In this document: positions 3,470 through 28,709 of the stretch, piece after piece | Numbering within the stretch: the first letter of the stretch is position 1 | Layout of the letters: every line of letters starts with the position of its first letter | Source: Lachnospiraceae bacterium | GTDB lineage: Bacteria; Bacillota; Clostridia; Lachnospirales; Lachnospiraceae | NCBI GenBank assembly: GCA_017416465.1 | Contig: JAFQCK010000098.1 | Span: forward strand, 39,329 to 103,328 | DNA: 64,000 nucleotides | Direction: 5' to 3' | Program-made: the position numbers and the translations under genes | Notes under the pieces: generated by a model | The model's database searches: none | What the model saw: only the letters and a program-made list of their open reading frames with translations | What the model was told of the DNA's origin: nothing

Positions 3470-4024
3470 CTACACTTTCTGAACAAATATATGTTTGTTA
3501 GTTTTATATATTTTTTCTTTAATTATCTTATATCCAATTTCTCGTATATATGAAAAATCGGTTTCTTTCGAAGCTTCAACTATTATAAGACTATATTCAT
3601 CAATTATATCCGAATCCTTTAATCTAATCAAAACCTCTTTCTCATACTCATTATTATATGGTGGGTCAATAAAAACAACATCATATAAATTTCCTTTATT
3701 ACTTAAAAGAGAAATAGCACTTAAAACACTACTCTCAATCACCTGTGCCTTATTAACTAAATTAGTAAAATCAAGGTTATGCTTAATACATTTTACTGCT
3801 TCTTTATTATTATCAACAAAAGTCGCAAAACTTGCTCCTCTGCTTAGTGCTTCAATGCCAATAGCACCGCTTCCACTAAATAAATCAAGAAACCTACAAT
3901 CTGATACATCATTTTGAATTATATTGAATAAAGTTTCCTTAATTCTATCAGTTGTCGGTCTTGTATATAAACCATCAATTGTCTTTAACTTTATACTTTT
4001 TGCACTTCCTGCAATTACTCTCAT
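3470..4024 (-). CDS. rsmD: 16S rRNA (guanine(966)-N(2))-methyltransferase
   Basis: Methylates G966 of 16S rRNA in the 30S subunit using S-adenosylmethionine. The N-terminal MRVIAGSAKS, the TRPTTDRIKETLFN segment near residue 25, the SAM-binding motif FLDLFSGSGAIGIEALSRGA and the catalytic FIDPPYN motif are all present. I place the start at 4024 rather than 4036. MRVIAGSA is the usual N-terminus, and the TGAGG ribosome binding site overlaps the upstream ATG, eight bases before the chosen one. Stop and coaD start are adjacent. Confidence 0.94.
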   Translation of the reverse strand: MRVIAGSAKSIKLKTIDGLYTRPTTDRIKETLFNIIQNDVSDCRFLDLFSGSGAIGIEALSRGASFATFVDNNKEAVKCIKHNLDFTNLVNKAQVIESSVLSAISLLSNKGNLYDVVFIDPPYNNEYEKEVLIRLKDSDIIDEYSLIIVEASKETDFSYIREIGYKIIKEKIYKTNKHIFVQKV

Positions 4025-4066
4025 ATAATGCCTCATTTCTGAGCAATTTATAAAATCACTGAAAAT

Positions 4067-4095
4067 AGGATTGTCATCAAGTTCATGACAATCCT
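4067..4095 (-). terminator. Hairpin across the cheR stop codon
   Basis: Perfect 11-base arms AGGATTGTCAT (4067-4077) and ATGACAATCCT (4085-4095). On the minus strand the stem is followed by ATTTT only, so termination before rsmD may be partial. The cheR stop codon (4083-4085) lies in the hairpin. Confidence 0.5.
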
Positions 4096-4874
4096 TCAGT
4101 ACTATTTTTTTTATAGAAAAATGACTTAATCGACGAATAATTCAATTCCCTATAATTAATAATCTGCTCCGTACTTCCAACAAATAACACTCCATTTTTA
4201 TTTAGAGATTTATTAAAATTGGTATAAATACGATTTTTAGCTTCATCAGTAAAATAAATAACTACATTTCTACACAGAATCAAATCAAATGGTTCCGGAT
4301 ACACATCTTTCAACAAATCATGTCTTTGAAATGTCACACATTTCTTTATCTCATCTGAAATCTGGTAGCTTTTTTCCCCAAGTTTAGTAAAATATTTATC
4401 TTTATACTTCTTTGGAAGTCCTGCCAAACTCTTTTCGCCATATACTCCAACCTTTGCTTTCTCTATTATCTGAAGATCTAAATCTGTTGCTAAAATAGAA
4501 AACTCAGATGTTGGAAGGTAATCTTTAATTAACATAGCAAGAGAATACGGTTCATCCCCTGTTGAACAAGCCGCACTCCAAACTTTTAATTTACCCTTAG
4601 CATTTTTAATAAGATTTGGTAATATCTCTGACTCTAAAATTCTCCACTGTTCCGGATTCCTATAAAACTCAGAAACATTAATTGTTATATAACTCATAAA
4701 TTCTTCAAAGAGATTTTTATCATTTGTTATAGCTTCAATAAATTCTTCGTATCCCTTGAGTCTGTGTTTTTGAATAAGAGCGTCAATTCTACGCTTCATT
4801 TGACGCTCTTTATAACAATCTAAATCTACATGAGTTAATTTATAGACAGGCGCTTTGAATTGTTCGTAATCCAT
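4083..4874 (-). CDS. cheR: CheR-type chemoreceptor glutamate methyltransferase
   Basis: Methylates glutamates of methyl-accepting chemotaxis proteins with S-adenosylmethionine. The N-terminal CheR helical domain (DCYKERQMKRRIDALIQKH) is followed by TINVSEFYRNPEQW. The SAM-binding segment VWSAACSTGDEPYSLAML comes next, then the LCRNVVIYFTDE motif near residue 200. Length (263 aa) is typical. No other chemotaxis gene is near, so this is an isolated copy downstream of rpsA. The start ATG at 4874 has a GGAGG about 8 bases upstream. Confidence 0.93.
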   Translation of the reverse strand: MDYEQFKAPVYKLTHVDLDCYKERQMKRRIDALIQKHRLKGYEEFIEAITNDKNLFEEFMSYITINVSEFYRNPEQWRILESEILPNLIKNAKGKLKVWSAACSTGDEPYSLAMLIKDYLPTSEFSILATDLDLQIIEKAKVGVYGEKSLAGLPKKYKDKYFTKLGEKSYQISDEIKKCVTFQRHDLLKDVYPEPFDLILCRNVVIYFTDEAKNRIYTNFNKSLNKNGVLFVGSTEQIINYRELNYSSIKSFFYKKNSTEGLS

Positions 4875-15777: not shown

Positions 15778-16962
15778 TTAAAACATCCAAAAATCTAAAA
15801 TTTTATTTAAACAATATTTAAAATCTCTCTTTTTCACATAGTCACTTACACAAATATTTAATTTCTGATACTCCTCATTATTTATTTTTATTATGACTTT
15901 TCCTATTATTTGATTTTTATAAACCGGTGCTTCTACATAGTCAGGAAATATATATTCATAATCTATTATATCATTATCGGATATAAGACTACTGATATTA
16001 CCATCTATATATGTGTCAACCTTCTTTTCTATCCCATCTTTTATTATTAGAGTTTTATAATTGTCAATCGAATTAAAAAGCGTTCTGTAATTATAGTTAT
16101 TAAACCCATAATCCATTAATTTTATAGTATCTTTCCACTTAAAACTTTTATCAGGCGGCCAACCACTTGCGAGAACTACTGAAATCAAAGTCTTATTATT
16201 TTTTTTAGCAGCTCCAACAAAACAATATCCTGCTTTTCCGGTAAATCCGGTTTTTACTCCAATAGCACCTTTATACATTGTTAAAAAAGCGTCTTTGTTT
16301 GAAATATTATAGTTCGCTTTTCCATTGATTTCAGAAAAATTATGATTTGCACAATTTATTATCTTAATAAATTTCTCATTTTTTAAAGCGAATGAAGTAA
16401 TTAAAGCCAAATCATATGCTGTTGTATAATGATTAATATCATCCAGTCCATTTGCAGTAACAAAATTAGTTTCAAAAGCTCCCATTTCTTTTGCTTTTTC
16501 ATTCATCAATTTCGCAAAATTTTCTTCACTACCTGCTATAGTTTCTGCTATTGCTACAGCTGTATCATTATGAGATTCAAGCATTAAAGAATATAACATA
16601 TCCTCCATATAAAATTCTGAGCCTTCACTTGCACCAAGTTTTACTTTCGGTTTTGAAGCTGCATACTTAGAAAATACAACCTTATCATTAGGGTTAGATT
16701 TTTCAAGAGCTATTAAACAAGTCATTATTTTTGTTGTACTGGCCATAGGCATTTGTTCATAACCATTTTTTTCAAAAAGCACTCTTTTACTTTCTGCATC
16801 AATTAATATAGCAGACTTTGCATATAAATCGTTCTCTTTAATTAATATCGTTTTATTTTCGTCTGCATATATATATACATTCGACACAACAAACGTAATA
16901 ACAAAAATAATCACAACAAAAAAGTTATTTGCTTTAAAATTAAAACTATTTTTTTTAACCAT
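15778..16962 (-). CDS. D-alanyl-D-alanine carboxypeptidase (S11 family)
   Basis: Trims the terminal D-Ala from peptidoglycan stem peptides outside the membrane. An N-terminal hydrophobic segment (FFVVIIFVITFVVSNVYIYA) serves as signal or anchor. The three penicillin-binding motifs are present: SxxK in PMASTTKIMT (near residue 75), SxN in ESHNDTAVAIAE (near 130) and KTG in GVKTGFTGKAGYC (near 230). A C-terminal beta domain follows and the protein ends with a hydrophobic stretch. At 394 residues it is a normal DacB/DacF-like enzyme. It is transcribed alone, with its own terminator. A second paralogue lies at 28756. Confidence 0.93.
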   Translation of the reverse strand: MVKKNSFNFKANNFFVVIIFVITFVVSNVYIYADENKTILIKENDLYAKSAILIDAESKRVLFEKNGYEQMPMASTTKIMTCLIALEKSNPNDKVVFSKYAASKPKVKLGASEGSEFYMEDMLYSLMLESHNDTAVAIAETIAGSEENFAKLMNEKAKEMGAFETNFVTANGLDDINHYTTAYDLALITSFALKNEKFIKIINCANHNFSEINGKANYNISNKDAFLTMYKGAIGVKTGFTGKAGYCFVGAAKKNNKTLISVVLASGWPPDKSFKWKDTIKLMDYGFNNYNYRTLFNSIDNYKTLIIKDGIEKKVDTYIDGNISSLISDNDIIDYEYIFPDYVEAPVYKNQIIGKVIIKINNEEYQKLNICVSDYVKKRDFKYCLNKILDFWMF

Positions 16963-27247: not shown

Positions 27248-27817
27248 TTATACTTCTAATTTAAGTTGAATCTCTTCTTCTGCCTCTACCTTAAATTCTT
27301 CATCTTTTTCAGGATTTATCTCCGGCAAATCCTCTATAGAAGATATTCCGAATTGCCTTAAAAATTCTTCAGTTGTACCAAATAACAATGGTCTTCCGGG
27401 AGCATCAAGTCTTCCAACCTCACACACCAAGTTATATTCCACAAGTTTATTAACTGCATGGTCACACTTTACACCTCTGATCTTTTCTATTTCAGTTCTT
27501 GTAACCGGTTGTTTGTAAGCAATAATTGACAATGTTTCCAGCAATACTTCTGTCAAAACCTGTTTTTTAGGTTGAGATGCAACTTTTATTAAGTATTCAT
27601 ACATATCTTTCTTTGTACACATCTGATAACAATTCTCAAGCTCACAGATTCTTATACCTCTGTCTTCCATCTCATATCTGTCCATCATATTAGCAATAAT
27701 CTTTTTTGTAGTCTTCACATCATGTCCAATTGCCATAGAAATCTTTTCAACCTCTACAGAATCTCCCATTGTAAAAAGTATTGCTTCTATTATAGCTTCT
27801 ATTTTTTGAATTTCCAT
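27248..27817 (-). CDS. scpB: Segregation and condensation protein B
   Basis: Winged-helix kleisin partner of the SMC-ScpAB condensin. 190 residues. It starts EIQKIEAIIEAILFTMGD, carries LSIIAYKQPVTRTEIEKIRG near residue 95 and ends in an acidic tail. The start is ATG 27817 with GGAGGA five bases upstream. A longer reading from 27853 would begin inside the inserted repeat and is rejected. The gene is separated from scpA by a hairpin element that carries a duplicated ribosome binding site. Confidence 0.95.
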   Translation of the reverse strand: MEIQKIEAIIEAILFTMGDSVEVEKISMAIGHDVKTTKKIIANMMDRYEMEDRGIRICELENCYQMCTKKDMYEYLIKVASQPKKQVLTEVLLETLSIIAYKQPVTRTEIEKIRGVKCDHAVNKLVEYNLVCEVGRLDAPGRPLLFGTTEEFLRQFGISSIEDLPEINPEKDEEFKVEAEEEIQLKLEV

Positions 27818-27820
27818 TTT

Positions 27821-27963
27821 TATCCTCCATGCCGGAGCTTTTAGCGAAGGCACTGCGTGGCAAATATCAAATTTGCCACTGCAATCACAAGAATTTGTGC
27901 TCCGTCACAAATTCTTGTGTTAAAAATAAGGTCATCAGACTTATTTTTTGCACTATCCTCCAT
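27821..27963. mobile_element. Hairpin-rich insertion with 10-base direct repeats between scpA and scpB
   Basis: A 123-base segment (27831-27953) is flanked by identical TATCCTCCAT at 27821-27830 and 27954-27963. It holds three perfect hairpins: 9-base arms at 27857-27865/27871-27879, 14-base arms at 27886-27899/27906-27919, and 9-base arms at 27922-27930/27940-27948. Removing one repeat and the insert leaves scpA stop, 5 bases, one ATGGAGGATA, then the scpB start, an ordinary operon junction. The flanking repeat is therefore best read as a target-site duplication. No terminal inverted repeat or coding capacity is seen, so it would be a non-autonomous element. Confidence 0.75.
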
Positions 27964-27968
27964 ACATC

Positions 27969-28709
27969 TTACGCTGCATCAATTATTATGTCATCAAAAA
28001 TATTATTTTGCACTATATTAATTTTTCCTGTTTTCATAAGTTCCAATATCGCAAGAAATGTAACTATTATCTGCATTTTTGAGTGTTGTCCCGAAAGCAT
28101 CTTCTTAAAACTGCAATGCCTGTTTTCTGATATATAATCCATTACCTGCACAATCTTTTCTTCTATATTAACTTCTTCTTTTTCTATTTTTCCAAACTTA
28201 CTTCTAATCGGATCAATTTTATCCGCTTGTCTTTTAATTACTTCTGCAAATATATCATTTAGTTTTTTTAATGTAATTCCATCAAGCAACTTTCCCAAAT
28301 CAACAGGTGGTTCATATTTTTTAACCTCGTCCGGTATTGTAGGTTTCTTATACATACTTTTTTCAGCATCAATCTGCCTGTCTTTCAATTCATAAGACAT
28401 ATACTTATATCTTTTGTATTCCAAAAGTTTCTCTACAAGTTCGGCTCTTGGGTCTTCTTCTTCATCAACAACCTCAGGATCTTTAGGTAACAGCATCTTA
28501 GCCTTTATATCCAGTAAAGTTGCTGCCATTACTAAAAACTCACTTACCAGATTTAAATCCTGCTTATCCATCTGTTTTACATATTCCATATATTGTTCAG
28601 TTATCTCAACAATAGGAATATCATATATATTAACTTTATTCTTATCAATCAGATGTAACAACAAATCCAACGGACCTTCAAACACCTGTAATCTGAATTC
28701 TAAATTCAT
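27969..28709 (-). CDS. scpA: Segregation and condensation protein A
   Basis: Kleisin subunit of the SMC condensin complex, 246 residues. The N-terminal FRLQVFEGPLDLLLHLIDKN at residues 4-23 and EFLVMAATLLDIKAKMLLP near residue 60 are diagnostic. The C-terminal winged-helix region (FLAILELMKTGKINIVQNN) binds the SMC head. It precedes scpB as in most Firmicutes. The start is ATG 28709. Confidence 0.95.
   Translation of the reverse strand: MNLEFRLQVFEGPLDLLLHLIDKNKVNIYDIPIVEITEQYMEYVKQMDKQDLNLVSEFLVMAATLLDIKAKMLLPKDPEVVDEEEDPRAELVEKLLEYKRYKYMSYELKDRQIDAEKSMYKKPTIPDEVKKYEPPVDLGKLLDGITLKKLNDIFAEVIKRQADKIDPIRSKFGKIEKEEVNIEEKIVQVMDYISENRHCSFKKMLSGQHSKMQIIVTFLAILELMKTGKINIVQNNIFDDIIIDAA

Follow-up and report, generated by a model that had tools for sequence, protein, structure and literature searches.

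A probably mobile family of folded elements situated at Shine–Dalgarno sequences in Lachnospiraceae

We found that a folded insert between scpA and scpB, in the 64,000-nucleotide stretch of Lachnospiraceae DNA analysed here (the window), belongs to a family of sequences that is probably a non-autonomous mobile element of the Lachnospiraceae, settling at Shine–Dalgarno (SD) sequences in sense orientation. The family is multicopy, and its members mostly share position and orientation and have a conserved fold. The SD-like repeats at the two ends of a copy resemble each other in a copy-specific manner, and individual copies are present in one species and absent from a close relative. Copy number, the scatter of sites and these presence/absence differences point to mobility. 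We found the family neither in Rfam nor in the literature searched.

In the window, identical 10-mers (TATCCTCCAT) at positions 27821–27830 and 27954–27963, 133 bases apart from start to start, enclose an insert of 123 bases (27831–27953), exactly as a preliminary description of this DNA had stated. The genes on either side, which it had named scpA and scpB, were confirmed by Pfam: scpA, the upstream gene, lies at 27969–28709 (PF02616, 7e-37) and scpB, the downstream gene, at 27248–27817 (PF04079, 5e-57), both on the minus strand. Read in the sense of the scp operon, which is that of the minus strand, the order is scpA, ATGGAGGATA (27954–27963), the folded insert, a second ATGGAGGATA (27821–27830) and scpB. 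The upstream (left) repeat, found by repeat search, is SD-like and corresponds to the left SD in the alignment of copies. The right repeat, seen in the sequence and by repeat search, is the SD before scpB and is presumably the one in use, as the right SD would be in the family generally.

Inverted-repeat searches and alignments placed three hairpins within the insert, all on the minus strand: hairpin 1 (27917–27953), with a UGAU loop, 2 bp, a 3' bulge and a long A/U stem; hairpin 2 (27886–27919; conserved core 27889–27916); and hairpin 3 (27852–27885). Three perfect hairpins had been claimed. Two are perfect in the window copy, namely the 14-bp stem of hairpin 2 (arms 27886–27899 and 27906–27919) and a 9-bp stem (arms 27857–27865 and 27871–27879), each 100% paired, whereas the third is imperfect, its 14-bp stem (arms 27917–27930 and 27940–27953) being 86% paired with a bulge that is kept there in most homologues. 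Three short minus-strand segments were located by alignment, their positions counted by hand. The hairpin-2 loop ACGGAG (27900–27905) is the 5' strand of a pseudoknot, and GCTCCG (27833–27838), directly before the right SD, is its 3' strand; CCTTC (27846–27850) is complementary to the left SD and could form a further, less well-supported helix, P1.

For the 166-base stretch, the folding energy of the minus (sense) strand was −57.9 kcal/mol (z = −6.2; none of 200 shuffles was as good), and z was about −6 on either strand. The 10-base repeat alone is weak evidence, because the window holds 41 identical 10-mer pairs 100–200 bases apart, three of them with at least four G+C, the TATCCTCCAT pair among these. 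What sets this pair above chance is that its two members enclose a hairpin insert and that related copies exist at other places.

The scpA–scpB junction is element-free in relatives. The gap between the genes measures 0–90 nt in each of the eight same-genus genomes, compared with 151 nt in the window. By tblastn it is below 100 nt in 78 of the 79 named loci that have both genes and 245 nt in one. These come from a set of 80 named loci, one of which has no scpB on its contig and five of which come from genomes that also belong to the genus set. A covariance model of the element (E 0.001, default filters) had no match at the junction in the 80 loci; it had two matches in them in all, both away from the junction. 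The same insert did not recur at this site in relatives: the junction was free of the element in each of the eight same-genus genomes, and likewise in 79 of the 79 named loci that carry both genes. The empty, compact junction that the preliminary description had predicted exists, but the single ATGGAGGATA predicted to mark it was present in none of the eight same-genus junctions. Its reading of a hairpin element inserted between scpA and scpB is supported; the target duplication that it proposed has no before-and-after pair at scpA–scpB and is instead suggested by copy-specific repeat matching and by other loci, as described below.

Searching the genome of the window (G000) with the window copy returned 19–20 matches, the window copy included. 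Among eight other genomes of the same genus, one (G003) gave five matches and the other seven gave none at that threshold. In the window genome and in relatives there are further copies flanked left and right by SD-like repeats. We aligned 19 full copies (14 from G000 and five from G003), cut by hand at the SD and, except for L003, at the start codon. The copies in this alignment, A1, share an SD-like left end, hairpins 1, 2 and 3, a pre-SD segment and a right SD. The covariance model built from them (R1) matched 53 of 397 genomes of the family Lachnospiraceae (E 1e-4, strict filters, seven candidates scored per genome). Of 391 genomes sampled across the class, three matched, all of them Lachnospiraceae. 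Three species of another genus had 18, 13 and 51 covariance-model matches. The element is about 120–135 nt long, or up to about 155 nt with an extra hairpin. Sites matching a hairpin-1 pattern were commonest in G003 among four genomes probed, with up to 98 sites there, a count that includes opposite arms of one hairpin, compared with 4 for a reversed control pattern. G003 is the metagenome-assembled genome RUG015 (100% identity over 3735 bases), which belongs to what we take to be a rumen series.

Rfam gave no gathering-level match in the window, and across 13 element loci its only matches were one tRNA and one RT-5 RNA, neither of them on the element; two other matches fell far below gathering scores. 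At one locus a copy (L002 1494–1767) lies between an RT-5 RNA (Rfam RF03026) and a reverse transcriptase gene (PF00078). We found no description of the family in a literature search by title and abstract and in passages of PMC3049150, PMC8040213 and PMC11109978, whose supplements may hold an unnamed listing.

The fold is strongly conserved. When the pseudoknot was counted, 89.3% of the cells in A1 were paired, and 136 cells carried double changes compared with 48.3 in shuffled alignments, a count that none of 500 shuffles reached. In 81 distinct copies from the other genus, in an alignment fitted to the model and with the pseudoknot excluded, 92.0% of cells were paired and double-change cells numbered 336 compared with 87.5 after shuffling; relatedness of the sequences inflates such counts. 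Sliding the stem partners by 1–3 columns lowered pairing to 34–48% in both alignments. The pseudoknot, which joins the hairpin-2 loop to the segment directly before the right SD, covaries, its pairs varying in sequence from GCAGG/CCTGC to GAGCG/CGCTC, GGAGC/GCTCC and GAACG/CGTTC. The helix between loop and tail averaged 9.0 bp when each loop was matched to its own tail and 7.3 bp when tails were permuted (p = 2e-4; 78 copies, kept from 89 rows once duplicates and those whose loop or tail was short had been removed). Helix P1, which would pair the left SD with the internal CCTTC or CCTCC, was weaker, with 71.9% of cells paired in A1 and 69.6% in the 81 copies. Sequestration of the SD by a hairpin with the pre-SD segment was unsupported (71.1% paired compared with 75.5% in shuffled sequences, 19 copies).

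Most copies were placed at the starts of genes. We analysed placement in 78 copies: 15 of 20 from G000, five from G003, and 58 of the 82 covariance-model matches in the three species of the other genus, a selection that excludes most weak or decayed matches among the 82. The element ended between −6 and +12 nt from the start of an open reading frame of at least 60 amino acids in 64 of them and within 120 nt of such a start in five, while nine showed no reading-frame start in the available stretch. A same-strand reading frame of at least 80 amino acids ended no more than 400 nt upstream in 65 of the 78. When hairpin 1 served as the sole probe, 27 of the 29 sites in the G003 loci retrieved were followed by a start in the same direction together with an SD-like stretch, under a loose rule that admits some internal starts, and the gene start was on the opposite side at the other two. 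Under a stricter rule, which places the right end of the element 6–30 nt before the start, 24 of the 29 passed. The misses were first tandem units, shortened units and one site whose start position reads ACG. At L285 697, the first unit of a tandem passed the stricter rule though its gene comes after the second unit. The tandems in G003 have the order SD–element–SD–element–SD–start, with a spacing of about 145 nt if both units are complete (L282 1596–1900, L285 697–990, L274 and L021).

Judged from their start peptides and sequences, the genes downstream of the copies appear unrelated; scpB and a reverse transcriptase are named by Pfam, and we take others to be dnaX, dnaE, fliW, fliD and a glucokinase-like gene. 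No site was shared between 21 G000 loci and 32 G003 loci, in a comparison that used part of the G003 copies with short flanks (E 1e-10) and could have missed some. These observations bear on the possibility that the family is a class of cis-regulatory RNA, controlling translation or shielding the mRNA from a 5' exonuclease with its pseudoknot, which is kept for the sake of the downstream genes and has spread mainly by selection and recombination. Such a role would explain the sense orientation, the location at the SD, and a strongly conserved fold whose pseudoknot abuts the SD. One orthologous pair of copies (L094 and L089), identical inside the element with differing flanks, is also compatible with functional constraint. 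We nevertheless consider a classical regulator unlikely, because the gene set is unrelated and the distribution patchy: the downstream genes form no consistent class, the G000 and G003 loci compared had no site in common, and the pre-SD hairpin that would sequester the SD was unsupported in the 19 copies.

The position of a GTG in hairpin 1 raises another reading, in which the family would encode a short leader peptide (MKNKSDD..) coupled to the gene. Of 88 copies, 76 have a GTG or ATG at this position. The frame is open to the gene start in 27 of the 88, compared with 3 and 8 for the other frames. The ends of this frame are scattered, however, from 1 to over 50 codons, and the window copy has GCA in place of a start codon. 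Peptides read by hand had no Pfam family, and the only NCBIfam match scored 12.9 bits against a cut-off of 125. In copies that have lost the start codon (L066 and L077, for example), the stems are still paired. We rejected the leader peptide on account of its scattered frame ends and of the starts lost while stems remain paired, and regard it as highly improbable.

We compared the SD-like repeats at the two ends of the element at 88 sites, each with recognised ends and a start codon, some of the G398 and G404 sites being orthologous pairs. The run shared between left and right was 7.70 nt, compared with 6.07 nt when partners were shuffled within a genome (p = 5e-5). At least 8 nt were shared at 48 of the 88 sites, compared with 21.5% of mismatched pairs, and fewer at the other 40. 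Taken by genome, the matching gave p = 5e-5 in each of G003 and G102, 0.002 in G398, and 0.03 in each of G000 and G404. Uncommon variants of the repeat, such as AAACGAGGAT, AAAAGAGGAT and AATGGAGTTT, each occur on both sides of a single copy. The copy-specific excess averages 1.6 nt, a modest value explained by the SD-like character of the element's own 3' end. Much of the left–right similarity is family sequence because the right-end SD is nearly constant. Indeed, part of the right-hand SD looks as if it were carried by the element, whose 3' end is ..GGAATGGAG or ..AGAAATGAGG in most copies, so the case for target duplication rests on copy-specific matching and on comparisons at other loci. 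Copy-specific similarity and the single SD of some empty sites would suit a target site duplication, yet the repeats are often non-identical and the 3' end is SD-like. The flanking repeat is a putative target duplication.

Filled and empty versions of the same site were found between close species. At a gene beginning MAGPSGIPG, G398 has a copy and a shorter relative with three SD repeats, and G404 has no element and one SD. At another gene, which we take to be thioredoxin-like, the element is present in G398 and missing from G404, which has a single altered SD. Two copies are found in G404 and missing from G398, at the MAEKVREF and L092 sites. The MAEKVREF site is the clearest pair: the empty allele has a single GGAGAATA, and the filled allele has this sequence to the left and to the right of the full element. 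Further left, the filled allele also has a shorter unit, at whose outermost left edge the repeat is missing. At L092, the element is replaced by unexplained sequence in G398, and the two repeats in G404 differ. At L088, the empty allele bears an apparent element end. One G003 copy has an element-free counterpart in the window genome, with a single, different SD. We infer that these presence/absence differences are insertions rather than losses, although loss or turnover rivals insertion because of the outer edge at MAEKVREF, the L092 sequence and the element end at L088, and turnover is likely beside insertion.

Some changes are of another kind. At three sites, a full element in one species corresponds to a shorter one in the other at the same SD, and hairpin 1 is the same or nearly so at two of them. 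Such swaps at the same SD imply exchange in place, not a jump, and exchange between copies clearly also happens. Among the copies common to G398 and G404, two are intact or nearly so and one is decayed. The shorter elements form a second type of about 80–90 nt with hairpin 1, small hairpins and the same SD ends (L236 at about 16125–16206, L245 at about 1006–1119, and L260), which at orthologous sites stands either beside the full element or in its place.

We found no terminal inverted repeats: the window copy has internal hairpins only, and in other copies the two ends (GTGTGAAAAAT.. and ..GCGGAAT) look non-complementary on inspection. The element could still be derived from a REP-like sequence or a MITE and be mobilised by a known transposase in the genome, for instance one of the Y1 (IS200–IS605) type, given that it is short, folded and multicopy and that its own genome holds five matches to Y1 transposases, not all of them intact or complete. 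Against this, G003, which is 99% complete and carries many copies, has no Y1 match (PF01797), and the inverted repeats at the window copy are internal only. Insertion by Y1 enzymes is not expected to give copy-specific flanking repeats. A derivative of this kind thus seems distinctly improbable. No autonomous partner sharing the ends of the element was found among the hairpin-1 sites examined, the transposase search being for Y1.

Several known repeats resemble the element in part. Rickettsia palindromic elements are palindromic mobile repeats tolerated at sensitive sites, inside open reading frames and in frame; the present element differs in lying between SD and start codon rather than in frame within genes. 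BOX of Streptococcus pneumoniae, as described in PMC3049150, has terminal inverted repeats that resemble the ends of ISSpn2; the number of its boxB modules varies, and it can disrupt genes. The present element is like BOX in being short, modular, folded and multicopy, with a variable number of modules, and in that a parasitic nature has been proposed for BOX; it is set apart from that description by having no terminal inverted repeats, by its pseudoknot and by its location at the SD before a start codon. By the definition of MITEs in the same paper, it shares with them short length, base pairing and flanks resembling target duplications, and differs in lacking terminal inverted repeats and in lying in sense orientation at SDs. 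The mobile or repeat candidates of PMC11109978 are described there as frequently lacking a consistent orientation and as being associated with transposases. They too are structured motifs with many copies per genome, whereas the present element is consistently oriented and has no known partner.

A sequence that lands between the SD and the start codon of a gene should in principle silence it. Here the order in sense orientation is target SD, hairpin 1, hairpin 2, hairpin 3, the segment that pairs in the pseudoknot, SD and start codon. In the mechanism that we propose for this probably mobile family, insertion would create SD-like repeats of about 8–12 nt at both ends, so that the downstream gene would keep an SD at normal spacing, and later copies could enter the same SD and produce tandems. 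Most likely, spread would occur through a trans-acting enzyme that copies a folded strand into SD-like DNA, and copies could afterwards exchange by recombination.

A bolder version of this proposal, which we put forward tentatively and think unlikely to hold in full, is a mobile RNA that recognises translation starts. Its CCTTC or CCTCC would pair with the target SD while the pseudoknot presents the next SD, and it would be copied into SDs together with a replacement SD, perhaps as RNA by a reverse transcriptase in the manner of a bacterial SINE, with initiation sites as a dedicated safe harbour. A family that recurs before genes such as scpB, dnaX and dnaE with the SD preserved would be a clear example of a mobile element that has made the initiation of translation its safe harbour. 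Many unrelated mRNAs also acquire from it a large leader with a pseudoknot, so its effect on translation and mRNA stability is directly testable, and it might explain some of the tiny open reading frames predicted before Lachnospiraceae genes.

Outside the bacterial genomes, two exact-pattern scans of viral contigs gave no hits (some variants could not meet the first, overly strict pattern, and each of the two requires one foot sequence), and a search of plasmids with a G398 copy found none. The G398 copy matched three unannotated faecal contigs labelled 'UNVERIFIED Bacteriophage sp.' (L271, L272 and L273), which may be bacterial DNA. Partial matches before start codons occur in the window genome (L031, L035, L037 and L038). 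Within the window, a possible shortened relative of the element lies at 4022–4115 on the minus strand (22.7 bits, E 0.0019, filters off), before the start codon of a presumably RsmD-like gene (MRVIAGSAK..), and its 3' end, GCTCAGAAATGAGG, is as in other copies.
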